This document shows, piece after piece, positions 9,659 through 21,755 of a stretch of 29,611 bases of DNA. The stretch spans positions 1 to 29,611 of IMG/VR virus record IMGVR_UViG_3300029266_000804; one strand, written 5' to 3'. The notes under the pieces are model-generated. The model saw nothing but the letters and a program-made list of their open reading frames with translations. It did not search any database and was not told the DNA's origin. Source of the DNA: a virus. A program made the translations under genes and the position numbers. Within the stretch, counting starts at the first letter, position 1, and each line of letters starts with the position of its first letter.

Positions 9659-9918
9659 TATGAATCACCTCTAGGTAATGATCTATGACCATCAATCTGT
9701 GGAAGATTCATAGTTTGTCTGTTCAACATGTCTTCGATTTGGTGTATCGTCATATTTGGATATTCACATCTAAGCATGACTGCGATTTGTTTGTTCGCTT
9801 TGACCTGTTGACCCATTTGACAAGATTCTATGATGCCAGAAATGTTATCAGCGATTAGTTCAAATAAAGCACTAATTGCCTTCGTTAAGTAGTTGTGACT
9901 TGTTAGTATATGTTGCAT
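9658..9918 (-). CDS. Hypothetical protein, 86 residues
   Basis: Function unknown. A soluble helical protein, starting MQHILTSHNYLTKAISALFE and ending HRSLPRGDS. The ATG has AGGA 8 bases upstream and lies inside the hsp20 coding region, giving a 47-base out-of-frame overlap. Long overlaps are unusual, but the ribosome site is good and no later start is better placed. It is probably transcribed from the hsp20 promoter. Confidence 0.65.
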   Translation of the reverse strand: MQHILTSHNYLTKAISALFELIADNISGIIESCQMGQQVKANKQIAVMLRCEYPNMTIHQIEDMLNRQTMNLPQIDGHRSLPRGDS

Positions 9919-10342
9919 TTGAGTTTTCCTCGTTTTTTCCTATTGAAATTTTACGAGGACGCATTTCTTCTGGGATTTCATACTTCAGTTCTACGGCAAG
10001 TATGCCATCTTGAATATCTGCTCCGTTTACTTGAACGTGTTCAGACAATCGAAAAGTACGTTTAAACTTCTTGGTACTAATACCCCGATGGATAAAGTCT
10101 CTTCCTTTGCTTACATGCTCTCCAGTTACCATCAATGTTCGGTCTTTGACTTCGATTGATAATTCATCTTTTGAAAATCCAGCAACTGCGAGTTCAATAA
10201 GATACTCATGTTCGCTTGATCTAATAATATTGTGGGGTGGATAGTGGTCAGATGCGTGACGAACTGTATGTTCCATTTCGTTAAACAAATGATCGAATCC
10301 CACAAAAGATGATCGTGGAAATAGTGTTTGTATGCCTGTCAT
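9872..10342 (-). CDS. hsp20: Hsp20 / alpha-crystallin small heat-shock protein
   Basis: An ATP-independent holdase that keeps unfolding proteins soluble. The 156-residue protein has the alpha-crystallin domain, with GFSKDELSIEVKDRTLMVTG and the signature GILAVEL, then a C-terminal IxI-type RKISIG used for oligomerisation. Known: hsp20 genes are common in T4-like marine phages. Start: ATG at 10342 with AGGAG 8 bases upstream; a TTG 24 bases further upstream is rejected because it lies inside the leader hairpin. It has its own perfect consensus promoter and a long leader whose last hairpin sequesters the ribosome site, so expression is likely strong and temperature dependent. Confidence 0.95.
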   Translation of the reverse strand: MTGIQTLFPRSSFVGFDHLFNEMEHTVRHASDHYPPHNIIRSSEHEYLIELAVAGFSKDELSIEVKDRTLMVTGEHVSKGRDFIHRGISTKKFKRTFRLSEHVQVNGADIQDGILAVELKYEIPEEMRPRKISIGKNEENSNATYTNKSQLLNEGN

Positions 10343-10350
10343 TTTGGTTT

Positions 10351-10367
10351 CTCCTTTTCCAAGCAAG
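10351..10367 (-). promoter_or_regulatory. ROSE-like RNA thermometer hairpin over the hsp20 ribosome site
   Basis: Minus-strand RNA CUUGCUU-GGAA-AAGGAG. It can fold as U-A, U-A, C-G, bulged G, U-G, U-A, C-G closed by a GGAA (GNRA-class) loop, burying AGGAG 8 bases before the hsp20 ATG. A UUGCU pairing with the Shine-Dalgarno with a bulged G is the known signature of ROSE thermometers in front of bacterial small heat-shock genes. I inferred folding by eye; no energy was computed. Confidence 0.6.
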
Positions 10368-10408
10368 AATGTTCTGAGACCAGATTGTTCTGCATCTCGC
10401 CGTGTTTG

Positions 10409-10428
10409 GACAACCTCTACAAGTTGTC
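10409..10428 (-). promoter_or_regulatory. 5' leader hairpin of the hsp20 transcript
   Basis: Inverted repeat GACAAC (10409-10414) and GTTGTC (10423-10428), with an 8-base loop, about a dozen bases after the expected transcription start. It could stabilise the 5' end of the message or form the first stem of a multi-hairpin thermometer. Confidence 0.5.
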
Positions 10429-10447
10429 TCTATTGTATATATGTATT

Positions 10448-10476
10448 ATTATAGCAGATTACAAGACTTATGTCAA
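10448..10476 (-). promoter_or_regulatory. Perfect-consensus sigma70 promoter for hsp20
   Basis: Minus-strand TTGACA (10471-10476), exactly 17 bases, TATAAT (10448-10453), preceded by TGC (extended -10). It overlaps the stop codon region of the DHODH-like gene and gives a leader of about 100 bases before hsp20. Confidence 0.9.
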
Positions 10477-11157
10477 TATATTTTTTAATTTCCATGGTGT
10501 AAAACATACTGTACCTAAACTTACATAATCAGCACCTTGATCGAAATAGTATTTCGCGTCACTTTTATTCGTAACGCCACCACCAGCAATAATAGTGACA
10601 TGAGGGTGCTTTACCTTTATGTAATCTATAATCCTTGTCGTATATGGTTTCAAAATGTTACCGCTTTGACCACCATTCAAAGAATACAGAGTATTGCTTG
10701 CGTGTATCTGATTATAACCAGAATCAACTATTTTGTCAATAAGATTTTCTGAGGCAGTTGGGGGTATTTTACAAATACACCATTCTCTTTTAGTTTGGGG
10801 GAAAATATCAAAACCAGGAAGATTAACTGCGCCGATATCTTTGTCAAGATTTGGGCAACTAATATTAATTTCTACACTTGTGGTGCTTGGTACTACATAA
10901 GACAAACTGATCCAATCATTTTTGTCTATAGCAGCAAGACTCAAAACTTCTGTAGTTTTTGTCCGTTTAAGACCAGTTACAACTCCAGCGTTGCGGAGTC
11001 CAATTTTATTCACCCATCCAGATTTAGTATATCGTAGAGTTTTTAGTACTTGAGGCAGAAGTCCTGGTCTACTCTGGTACGTCCAACTTCCAGTTACACT
11101 AATAGTGTTGGGAAGTTTTATATAATTTCCAAAGGGTGCCGATATAAAATATTTCAT
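10468..11157 (-). CDS. Dihydroorotate dehydrogenase-like flavoenzyme
   Basis: A 229-residue TIM-barrel enzyme similar to DHODH, which oxidises dihydroorotate to orotate in pyrimidine synthesis. Seen: NISCPN at 98-103, matching the class 1 motif with catalytic Cys101; KIPP at 130-133 (substrate or FMN Lys130); HASNTL at 152-157; GGQSG at 162-166; and the phosphate-binding strand IIAGGGV at 189-195. It is much shorter than the usual 310-340 residues, mostly at the N-terminus, so activity or substrate may differ. The start is at 11157, just after the upstream stop; an ATG at 11193 overlaps that gene and has no ribosome site. It ends the late accessory operon, which is odd for a nucleotide synthesis gene. 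Confidence 0.82.
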   Translation of the reverse strand: MKYFISAPFGNYIKLPNTISVTGSWTYQSRPGLLPQVLKTLRYTKSGWVNKIGLRNAGVVTGLKRTKTTEVLSLAAIDKNDWISLSYVVPSTTSVEINISCPNLDKDIGAVNLPGFDIFPQTKREWCICKIPPTASENLIDKIVDSGYNQIHASNTLYSLNGGQSGNILKPYTTRIIDYIKVKHPHVTIIAGGGVTNKSDAKYYFDQGADYVSLGTVCFTPWKLKNILT

Positions 11158-19498: not shown

Positions 19499-20556
19499 GC
19501 TATCTCAAGTGCTTGTGCTTCAGTCAACAAATTTCTCATTTCAATTTTAATTCTAGACTTATCTAATTCAGTTTCTACATTATCTACATAACTGTCAAGA
19601 AGGGTTGTAGTATCCTCTACAGACACGCCTTCATCCCCAACTCTGTCGCCAATAAATTCATCAAAATTCTCAGCAATTTTTAGTTCATGTATTTTCTTAC
19701 TATGTATTCTATCACATAATTTGTCGAATGTAAAGGGGTCAGATTTATTTACTACAACTAATTTAACAAACTTATCATCTAAATGTTCTACGTTGTAATT
19801 ATTATAATCGGTCTTCGTATCATCATATGTTATCTTTTCAAATAATGTGAATGGATTACGAATTGCCTCTAGTTCACGAGTCTCTGTGTCCAAAATATGA
19901 AAATGTTTTGGATCATGGGCATCAGACCAGAAAAACTCCATCTGTGTACCAAGATAAAGTATATTATCTTTCTGTGATTTGGTATGATAATGTCCAGATA
20001 ATACCATTTCAAATCTAGAAAATGCTTCTTTATCCATACCATGTTTATTCTGAATCCCTCGCATCATATCAAAACCTGATAATTCTAAATGCCCAGCAAG
20101 AAATGACGCTTTGCAATTTTTTACGAAATTCATAGATTCTTCTTGGTTCTCTGAGGTAATCCAAGGAAGCAGCGCAATATCAAGACCACCATAGTTCATC
20201 ACTGTGGGTTTCATAACGATATGAATCTCATTCATATAATGCCCAAGTAATTCTTTAAGTGAGTTTAAATCATTCGTGTTTTTGAAATAAGTGTCGTGAT
20301 TGCCAGGAATAATATCCATAGACATTCCACGTTCTCGCATAGGATTTAAAAAACTGTGGCGATTGTGAGTTAGTGCTTTGAAATTGATAAACTTACGATG
20401 GTCGTAATAATCTCCCAGATGCAATATCTGCTTTATGTTGTGTTCATCGCAATATGGAAAAAGAACTTCTCTATAAAATTTTGCAGCATTTTCTAAAAAA
20501 ATATCAGACGCATTTCTGATACCTGTGTGTGTATCATTTAGTATTAGTAACTTCAT
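19495..20556 (-). CDS. 47: Recombination nuclease subunit gp47 (Mre11-like)
   Basis: The metallophosphoesterase nuclease partner of gp46, 353 residues (T4: 339). Seen: NDTH (Asp8, His10), HLGDYYDH (Asp49), GNHD (Asn86, His87, Asp88), AGHLE (His156) and SGHYH (His189, His191): the complete two-metal site. It overlaps genes 55 and 46 by four bases each. Confidence 0.97.
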   Translation of the reverse strand: MKLLILNDTHTGIRNASDIFLENAAKFYREVLFPYCDEHNIKQILHLGDYYDHRKFINFKALTHNRHSFLNPMRERGMSMDIIPGNHDTYFKNTNDLNSLKELLGHYMNEIHIVMKPTVMNYGGLDIALLPWITSENQEESMNFVKNCKASFLAGHLELSGFDMMRGIQNKHGMDKEAFSRFEMVLSGHYHTKSQKDNILYLGTQMEFFWSDAHDPKHFHILDTETRELEAIRNPFTLFEKITYDDTKTDYNNYNVEHLDDKFVKLVVVNKSDPFTFDKLCDRIHSKKIHELKIAENFDEFIGDRVGDEGVSVEDTTTLLDSYVDNVETELDKSRIKIEMRNLLTEAQALEIA

Positions 20557-21149
20557 TCTAAAAAGTCTTTCAAATCGGAATCGACATTAACTGTTCGTTT
20601 TTTTCTTTGCTGTTTTTCTACCTTTCCAAATTCTTTTATTTCGGTGTCATACTCTTTTACTTTATCAATCCTATCTTTGAGTACATCAATAAAGTGTGTA
20701 GCAACTCCTGTGGCAGCAGCACCAGTTTCACTCACTAAAAATGCTTCTACGCCAGATTGGGACATAAATCTTTCTTTGATATCTTGTTGTTTCTTTTCTT
20801 TAGCAATTCGTCTTAGAAAAGCATACCAAATAATCTGAGTAAAATATGCGAAAGCGTTTGGTTTACCACTTCTAGTGGCAGCATTAATGTTATAGTTTTC
20901 TACTGCCTTGAGACAGTTCTCAACTGCATCCATAACCATTTCTTCACGGTAAGTGTATCTAATAAAGTTAGATTTATGGGAAAGATTCTCAGCGATTTTT
21001 AGAAAACAGAGCGCGAGATAATTTGGAACTACAGGCAATTCTTTGTCATTATCTCTTGCTTCATTTATAGTTACAACATATTCTACTATATTTGCGGAAA
21101 ATTCTTTGTTATCTACATAGTGCGTACTTTTTGATCGTGCTTTCGCCAT
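20553..21149 (-). CDS. 55: Late-transcription sigma factor gp55
   Basis: The phage sigma factor that directs host RNA polymerase to TATAAATA late promoters, 198 residues (T4: 185). Seen: the sigma core region YREEMVMDAVENCLKAVENY followed by NAFAYFTQIIWYAFLRRIAKE, and the C-terminal SDLKDFLE, which matches the T4 gp55 clamp-binding tail. ATG has AAGGAG 7 bases upstream and its own sigma70-type promoter. The late promoters found in this window are its expected targets. Confidence 0.95.
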   Translation of the reverse strand: MAKARSKSTHYVDNKEFSANIVEYVVTINEARDNDKELPVVPNYLALCFLKIAENLSHKSNFIRYTYREEMVMDAVENCLKAVENYNINAATRSGKPNAFAYFTQIIWYAFLRRIAKEKKQQDIKERFMSQSGVEAFLVSETGAAATGVATHFIDVLKDRIDKVKEYDTEIKEFGKVEKQQRKKRTVNVDSDLKDFLE

Positions 21150-21236: not shown

Positions 21237-21265
21237 TTGACAGAATTGTCTATTGGGTGTATAAT
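21237..21265 (+). promoter_or_regulatory. Perfect-consensus sigma70 promoter on the opposite strand
   Basis: Plus-strand TTGACA (21237-21242), exactly 17 bases, TATAAT (21260-21265). It points rightward, against every gene in the window, and would transcribe antisense into the small conserved gene and uvsW. An AT-only-like tract (21207-21231) lies behind it. A short dyad GACA-GAAT-TGTC overlaps the -35. AAGGAG follows the -10 directly. Confidence 0.75.
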
Positions 21266-21290: not shown

Positions 21291-21755
21291 TCAGTGTTTG
21301 TATCCCGAAGGAAAACGAATCACATTTTCATCACTATCAAACATTTCATGGAACTGTATATTCTTTTCAACTCCACCCTTTTTATTATATAGACGGTCCA
21401 TCCAAGTTTCTACGTCAAACTCTTCACCAGAGGTCATTTCTCCATCTTTAGATATAGCCGCCATCTGTTCTTCACCTATTGCATTTGCAAACTGTTTCAT
21501 CAAATCATTACTTGGGAGAGCAATTGCAACAATATGCATGTCATTTAATGATATTAATTCTTGTGTTGTTTCTTGAAATGAAATCCAAGGTCTGAGCATC
21601 CCATAGGTTCGTGTTGCATCAACATCAACTTTGCAAATCTGTAGAGCATTGCGAATTATAAGTTCATCATCATTTATGTCCACAATTTCGCATAGTATTT
21701 CATCTCCAGATGACATCTTAATTTGCTTTATATCTTCTTTACCATTGTAACTCAT
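21291..21755 (-). CDS. Conserved T4-like phage protein downstream of uvsW
   Basis: A 154-residue protein of unknown function. The first 60 residues, IKQIKMSSGDEILCEIVDINDDELIIRNAL (read in two parts: IKQIKMSSGDEILCEIV, then DDELIIRNAL), look like a small beta-barrel of the Lsm/Sm kind; the C-terminal half is acidic and helical. Proteins of this look are common in marine T4-like phages. The ATG overlaps the uvsW stop, with GAGG upstream. Its 3' end is covered by the antisense promoter transcript, if that is made. Confidence 0.75.
   Translation of the reverse strand: MSYNGKEDIKQIKMSSGDEILCEIVDINDDELIIRNALQICKVDVDATRTYGMLRPWISFQETTQELISLNDMHIVAIALPSNDLMKQFANAIGEEQMAAISKDGEMTSGEEFDVETWMDRLYNKKGGVEKNIQFHEMFDSDENVIRFPSGYKH

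Follow-up and report, generated by a model that had tools for sequence, protein, structure and literature searches.

The leader of a phage hsp20 gene, which encodes a small heat-shock protein (sHsp), probably works as a ROSE-type RNA thermometer; for this statement as a whole, from structure through repression and melting to translation, we put the probability at about 0.78. That a ROSE-like structure is present is, taken alone, close to certain. The DNA analysed, hereafter the window, comprises all 29,611 bases of a virus record, and the leader between the promoter and hsp20 measures about 100 nt. The anatomy of the element, its conservation with compensatory changes, its specificity for hsp20 and its likeness to proven bacterial ROSE elements are direct observations.

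The element would be of the short Pseudomonas type: hairpin I is stable and carries a bulged G, and behind it, in the weak hairpin II, a U(U/C)GCU motif would pair with the Shine-Dalgarno (SD) sequence around a bulged G. By analogy with characterised bacterial elements, translation is expected to be repressed in the cold and to respond to temperature through melting. Hairpin II would bar ribosomes from the hsp20 mRNA at low temperature; warming, or protein-folding stress acting on the same structure, would open it, whereupon the chaperone mRNA, already transcribed, would be translated.

The gene itself is readily recognised (Pfam HSP20, E 5.4e-18; PHROG 432 Hsp20, 8.9e-35). A TTG at 10366 was rejected as its start in favour of the ATG given in Table 1. 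A preliminary description of this DNA had placed an exact TTGACA-17-TATAAT promoter with an upstream TGC ahead of hsp20, and it is indeed there. Three exact promoters of this form occur in the window against 0.01 expected from shuffles. The third, at 21237-21265 on the plus strand, lies between the minus-strand ORFs 20553..21149 and 21291..21755 and may drive an unannotated or antisense RNA.

Table 1. Features of the hsp20 locus in the window.
Feature	Position	Strand	Basis or remark
hsp20 (small heat-shock protein, 156 aa)	9872..10342	minus	ATG at 10342; gene predicted to be under control of the leader
CAGGCA, codons 2-4 of hsp20	10333..10338	minus	can form a helix with UGCUUG 10365..10360 in place of hairpin II
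Shine-Dalgarno AAGGAG	10351..10356	minus	sequence; 8 nt before ATG 10342; 3' arm of hairpin II
ROSE-like hairpin II CUUGCUU-GGAA-AAGGAG, bulged G 10364	10351..10367	minus	sequence and covariation
Anti-Shine-Dalgarno arm CUUGCUU (U(U/C)GCU motif)	10361..10367	minus	sequence
ROSE-like hairpin I GAGAU-[G]-CAGA-ACAA-UCUG-GUCUC, bulged G 10393	10376..10398	minus	folding and covariation
5'-most (third) hairpin GACAACUU-GUAG-AGGUUGUC	10409..10428	minus	folding; found in this sub-lineage only
Sigma-70-type promoter TTGACA-17-TATAAT, TGC before -10	10448..10476	minus	exact match
Second sigma-70-type promoter, within the upstream ORF, directed at hsp20	10711..10739	minus	exact match

Three hairpins make up the leader (Table 1). 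The bulged-G hairpin over the SD that the preliminary description had proposed is present, as is a hairpin near the 5' end; what had been overlooked is the telling middle hairpin I, with its own bulged G. The arms of the 5'-most hairpin vary together among window-like leaders, and the L028 group has a different stem at that position. The leader agrees with published accounts of ROSE-like elements (PMC3669281, PMC11182007): it lies directly upstream of an sHsp gene, its UUGCU pairs imperfectly with AGGA of the SD around a bulged G (10366..10352), and among its hairpins, two to four being usual, a stable one stands upstream of the SD hairpin.

Of 200 dinucleotide shuffles of the whole leader, 197 fold less well than the leader itself (z -2.5). 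The hairpin II motif CTTGCTTGGAAAAGGAG at 10367..10351 (minus strand) has no other match in the window, even with two mismatches allowed. Since 0.63 matches to this 17-nt motif are expected in a shuffled window at up to two mismatches, the motif alone could be due to chance; it is conservation that speaks against this.

A protein search of IMG/VR yielded 80 loci whose Hsp20 is 77-100% identical to that of the window. Upstream sequence is strongly divergent among these close relatives, with both hairpins kept. Covariation was assessed in an alignment (A2) of 20 of their leaders that leaves out the window's own group. In hairpin I, 7 of the 9 pairs show double changes, and pairing holds in 99.3% of cells. 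Double-changed cells number 33, where shuffles give 8.9 (0/500); like all shuffle controls used here, these ignore the relatedness of the sequences. If the partner is shifted by one column, pairing falls to 57-59%. In one relative (L031), the hairpin I stem is shorter by one base on each side, which amounts to a paired deletion. A covariance model (R1), built from the same 20 relatives, finds the window leader at 10402..10340 with 48.7 bits (E 1.3e-10), the next-best match in the window reaching 12.6 bits. A larger MAFFT alignment (A3, 73 leaders) mixed the registers of hairpin I between groups, and a rule-based parse was used in its place.

In hairpin II the anti-SD arm shows no variation in the 20-row alignment, and the signal comes from the outer pairs. 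The first pair outside the core is C-G in 48, A-U in 7 and U-G in 1 of the distinct segments fetched by protein, so that all 56 are paired, against 78% in shuffles, none of 2000 of which is as high. The pair beyond it is formed in 55% of these 56 segments against 35% when shuffled (0/2000), and in 97% against 69% (0/2000; U-A 19, C-G 15) of 36 segments selected by a pattern to which this second pair does not belong. The third outer pair and the inner pairs give little or no covariation signal; the four core pairs carry none because they are fixed by the search rule or invariant. The check that the preliminary description had put forward, whether stem positions vary in relatives without compensation, thus finds compensated changes in both hairpins.

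The association with hsp20 also emerges when the protein is ignored. A DNA pattern of the two hairpins, devoid of protein information, was scanned over IMG/VR and retrieved at least 119 loci. R1 matched 117 of the 119 pattern loci listed, at E <=1 or E <=10, the exceptions being L098 and L145. Of the 84 R1 matches listed at E <=1, L081 and L082 included, 77 are followed by hsp20, 3 are cut off by a contig end and 4 precede another gene; these last are weaker, second matches, their contigs having an hsp20 match as well. One such second match (L123, 11787-11848, plus strand, 32.5 bits) precedes an 80-aa ORF in a contig that also has the hsp20 one. This ORF has no Pfam match, a weak PHROG match only (E 0.2) and no counterpart in another phage record, and a search of viral contigs returns its own contig only.

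Two further protein searches added 80 cyanophage-type and 80 pelagiphage-type loci. The cyanophage leaders have a UUCG-capped hairpin I, GGUU[G]CC-UUCG-GGGACC, followed by ACUCGCUU...AAGGAG; their hairpin I stems include the swaps GAAU/GUUC, GGAU/GUCC and GAUU/GAUC. In pelagiphage leaders, hairpin I reads GUAAU[G]CCC-AUUA-GGGAUUAC and is followed by AUCGCUUAACGAAAGGAU. A common layout, defined as one bulged-G hairpin, then U(U/C)GCU, a loop of 3-10 nt and AGGA at most 16 nt from the start codon, is found in 138 of 154 distinct hsp20 leaders fetched by protein alone (marine 38/40, cyanophage 53/62, pelagiphage 35/38, named records 12/14; the truncated L072 was left out of the count). The same layout occurs in none of 1629 other distinct ORF leaders of these loci and, by a slightly stricter rule, in none of 4360 shuffled leaders.

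Most of the 16 misses have a visible cause. Five look truncated (L022, L025, L309, L342, L281), three are artefacts of a wrong start whose true leader has the layout (L219, L221, L259), five have an altered SD (L238, L239, L240, L258, L271) and one has hairpin I only (L374). The last two, phages S-B68 (L207) and S-TIM61 (L209), have by eye ACGCU/AGGU in place of U(C)GCU/AGGA, a U-A to A-U swap that keeps the helix.

The layout is present in the named phages Melnitz-3, C48C1, S-SM1, S-RIM2, P-TIM40 and HTVC103P. P-SSM5 meets the final rule and fails another variant of it. For named phages, the count is best given as 11 of 13, which leaves out the unverified P. aeruginosa record of Pseudomonas phage Y7. 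In that record (L214, 1398-1464) the sHsp gene is preceded by an ibpA leader of the host type, and the locus is probably host DNA. Misplaced phage DNA turns up as well. One contig (188,235 nt), assigned to Nonlabens xiamenensis, has an hsp20 leader (L443, 503-558) nearly identical to that of cyanophage P-TIM40 (188,632 nt), and is probably a cyanophage contig inside a bacterial assembly. Phage-like hsp20 leaders in the Rhodobacteraceae MAG Water_Bin34 (L375, 522-585, and L376, 527-585; R1 scores of 32.7 and 27.2 bits) are possibly phage sequence binned with a bacterium. Since the design precedes nearly every phage hsp20 examined, it appears that phages carry chaperone genes under the control of heat or stress.

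The promoter does not share this constancy. Among eight window-like leaders checked, the exact sigma-70 promoter is found in three, those of the window, L008 and L010, the latter two having the window's hexamers and a different spacer; the remaining five have TATATATA in its place. The perfect promoter, from which the preliminary description had predicted abundant mRNA translated chiefly when warmed, is thus restricted to a small set of near relatives. Relatives often have a T4-type late box, TATAAATA, that ends 3-6 nt upstream of hairpin I. An exact box is found in 39 of the 68 leaders from other phages (1.5 expected), 14 of the 41 marine leaders (1.0 expected), 4 of 57 cyanophage leaders (0.2 expected) and 1 of 36 pelagiphage leaders (0.3 expected). 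If the box works as in T4, the mRNA would start at about hairpin I. With a sigma-70 promoter in the window, L008 and L010, and TATATATA or the late box elsewhere, the RNA element is constant and the promoter class variable.

Comparison with Rfam, which the preliminary description had suggested, gives a match of the right kind that stays below threshold. Of 4227 families, ROSE_3 (RF02523) scores highest on the short stretch of the window scanned, with 19.9 bits (E 0.044) against a cut-off of 43; for this reason the leader is called ROSE-like and is not filed as RF02523. A search of the window's full record, with a coarser first pass, gave no ROSE_3 match at E <=10. ROSE_3 is also the sole family at E <=1 in a set of 12 relatives, two of which it matched (L058, 28.1 bits; L076, 24.8 bits), and the top match of Melnitz-3 (34.1 bits, E 0.0014); the P. 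aeruginosa-type ibpA leader of the Y7 record scores 69.2 bits. At gathering score, the window has no Rfam match, 20 loci have a single tRNA only, and none of the phage leaders scanned reaches that of a ROSE family. ROSE_2 (RF01832) and ROSE (RF00435) match neither the window nor the scanned loci, E. coli with ROSE_2 excepted. The true ibpA ROSE of E. coli (L455) obtains 100.4 bits with ROSE_2 and only 20.8 bits with ROSE_3, so a score below the cut-off is no argument against a ROSE element. Absence of a gathering-score match was likewise rejected as such an argument; ROSE_3 at E <=1 matched 1 of 20 bacterial sHsp loci.

The layout rule recognises hairpin II in 65 of 80 bacterial sHsp loci and the full pair of hairpins in 51, which argues that phage and cellular elements are of one design. 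Among these are SAR11 loci that R1 matches too (L386, L391, L400, L404 and L439; 21.3-23.4 bits); R1 gives no match to the E. coli ibpA leader or to Y7. The closest parallel is the short two-hairpin ROSE element of Pseudomonas with its U(U/C)GCU motif, in which, according to PMC3669281, hairpin II alone suffices for thermoregulation and hairpin I does not melt. The phage elements share with this ROSE_3 element of Pseudomonas ibpA the sHsp gene downstream, the two hairpins, the U(U/C)GCU-SD pairing and a stable hairpin I of the GGAUGC..GGGUUC type. They differ from it in being phage-borne, AT-rich and below the Rfam cut-off, and the window has an extra 5' hairpin. Promoters differ too: the ibpA gene of P. 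putida is described as sigma-32-dependent (PMC3669281), whereas the phage promoters are sigma-70-like or T4-late-like. With ROSE_2 of E. coli ibpA (RF01832), the logic of the 3' hairpin and the gene family are shared; the upstream hairpins differ and R1 does not match the ROSE_2 element. The second-best Rfam score of the window belongs to freshwater-2 RNA (RF02980; 19.7 bits, E 0.53), a model that ends in AAGGAG..AUG, but the score is far under the cut-off of 49.9 and the hairpins of this family lack the bulged-G design. No paper on freshwater-2 RNA was found in the open-access literature. Taken together, the SD pairing, the upstream hairpin, the hsp20 context, the compensatory changes and the sub-threshold ROSE_3 score lend good support to the ROSE-like identity that had been claimed for this leader.

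The leader might instead serve mainly as a binding site for the phage's own Hsp20, which would repress its own synthesis until aggregates titrate it away, the signal being aggregation during infection rather than heat. There is precedent in E. coli, where IbpA represses its own translation via the thermometer 5' UTR and needs Arg93 to do so (PMC10474464). All 68 cyanophage-group and all 43 pelagiphage-group proteins have the corresponding Arg, as do the Melnitz proteins, and late expression, at the time of assembly, to which the late box may point, would suit such a loop. In the window lineage, however, the IbpA-type Arg at position 93 is replaced by Lys: this is so in 9 of 9 window-like and 26 of 26 other marine proteins, and an R93K substitution is reported to be repression-defective in E. 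coli (PMC10474464). In other phages the position is Arg in 34 and Lys in 41. The case for self-repression is consequently weaker for the window than for the cyanophages, and we regard it as the chief rival account of the leader, though an unlikely one. Self-repression and a thermometer are, moreover, not mutually exclusive.

Folding at several temperatures, another of the checks suggested at the outset, divides in its outcome: the SD of marine relatives is predicted to open more than that of controls, but the SD hairpin of the window itself is not favoured. ViennaRNA gives hairpin II a probability of about 0.01 in the window leader (computed on the identical leader of L001), because UGCUUG is engaged with CAGGCA in codons 2-4. 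The probability that the window's SD is free goes from 0.52 at 5 C to 0.66 at 50 C. Over 5-45 C, group means rise from 0.39 to 0.71 in marine relatives and from 0.44 to 0.55 in control genes; the increase is from 0.15 to 0.26 in cyanophage leaders and, in the Y7 ibpA leader, from 0.01 to 0.19. Thermal folding was accordingly rejected as proof of a thermometer, since ViennaRNA takes no account of the non-canonical pairs of ROSE and so cannot be decisive here. NMR work (Chowdhury 2006, cited in PMC11182007) reportedly found such non-canonical pairs within the SD helix of ROSE.

The same predictions raise the prospect that, in the window lineage, the working structure is the helix between UGCUUG and codons 2-4, acting as a two-state switch or a mild damper and not as a simple ROSE hairpin. 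This helix is within the minimum-energy fold at 10-37 C. Codon 3 hints at selection, being GGC in 64 of 69 MTG-starting relatives against 0-29 of 69 in six other invariant Gly columns. Synonymous codons are nearly fixed at the hsp20 3' end as well (alignment columns 132-135, 93-97%), an equally high conservation that weakens the argument from codon 3; the fixed codons at the two places suggest a further RNA-level constraint on hsp20. Cyanophage and pelagiphage leaders, for their part, retain hairpin II without these codons, and the program that predicts the helix leaves out the non-canonical pairs of ROSE. A working role for this helix in place of hairpin II is improbable.

Somewhat less probable again is a static SD hairpin that would set only a low fixed translation rate or its timing, for instance together with a RegA-type repressor encoded nearby, and would sense nothing. 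It is consistent with the UUCG-capped cyanophage leaders, which are predicted to stay closed over 5-45 C, and with a gene for a regA-type translational repressor just upstream of hsp20 in C48C1 (L081), S-B68 (L207) and P-SSM5 (L212). But a poor SD would suffice for a fixed low rate, and the fact that distant phages and bacteria alike keep the bulged G, U(U/C)GCU and a separate hairpin I speaks for a specific device. Hairpins that arose by chance in AT-rich leader sequence and are shared through recent descent only would be in keeping with the expected frequency of the 17-nt motif but are contradicted by the double compensatory changes in both hairpins, the paired deletion in L031 and the absence of the layout from all control leaders, and hardly merit consideration.

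The ROSE-type thermometer thus remains our reading of the leader. No description of a ROSE element in a phage, or on a phage hsp20, was found in the open-access literature, in agreement with the preliminary description, which knew of none. Phage-linked RNA thermometers as such are known: lambda cIII and the fourU element of SP-beta blyA (PMC10586365), and a fourU thermometer on a sigma-70 gene of one gut phage of the Caudoviricetes (PMC11182007). The cIII element is described as inhibiting expression at increased temperature (PMC10586365). The putative thermometer described here resembles these cases in residing in phage mRNA; unlike it, they are not of the ROSE type, are not on chaperone genes and are single cases. 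ROSE-like elements of bacteria have been surveyed (PMC11342760). Judged from the sequences compared, this is a known kind of element, ROSE-like, with an unusual breadth and carrier, being widespread on phage hsp20.

The gene hsp20 is among the core genes of cyanomyoviruses. Roles proposed for it there are capsid scaffolding (PMC3037559) and host survival of heat (PMC7674155), and cyanophage Hsp20 is reported to be a working chaperone in vitro (PMC5028025). According to PMC3827213, the cyanophage sHsps lie closer to class A of bacteria than to those of cyanobacteria, and 13 genomes of Prochlorococcus lack an sHsp. The word "thermometer" does not appear in the available text of the cyanophage sHsp papers PMC5028025 and PMC3827213. 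A ROSE leader fits an hsp20 gene acquired from a proteobacterium with its regulator attached.

A broader proposal, which we hold to be slightly better than an even bet, is that an sHsp gene with a ROSE leader, of proteobacterial type, forms a cassette that is a standing part of marine and freshwater phages, namely T4-like phages of several hosts, podo-type phages of SAR11 and a Sinorhizobium jumbo phage. The cassette would have been kept across promoter classes, T4-late and sigma-70, and would have reached cyanobacterial hosts, some of them lacking an sHsp; the phage would set the dose of its assembly chaperone after transcription, according to heat or folding stress. A conserved, stress-gated leader would argue that phages need Hsp20 on demand. 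If the thermometer reading is true, it would add another class of RNA thermometer to those of phages, and it may provide a link between water temperature and phage production.
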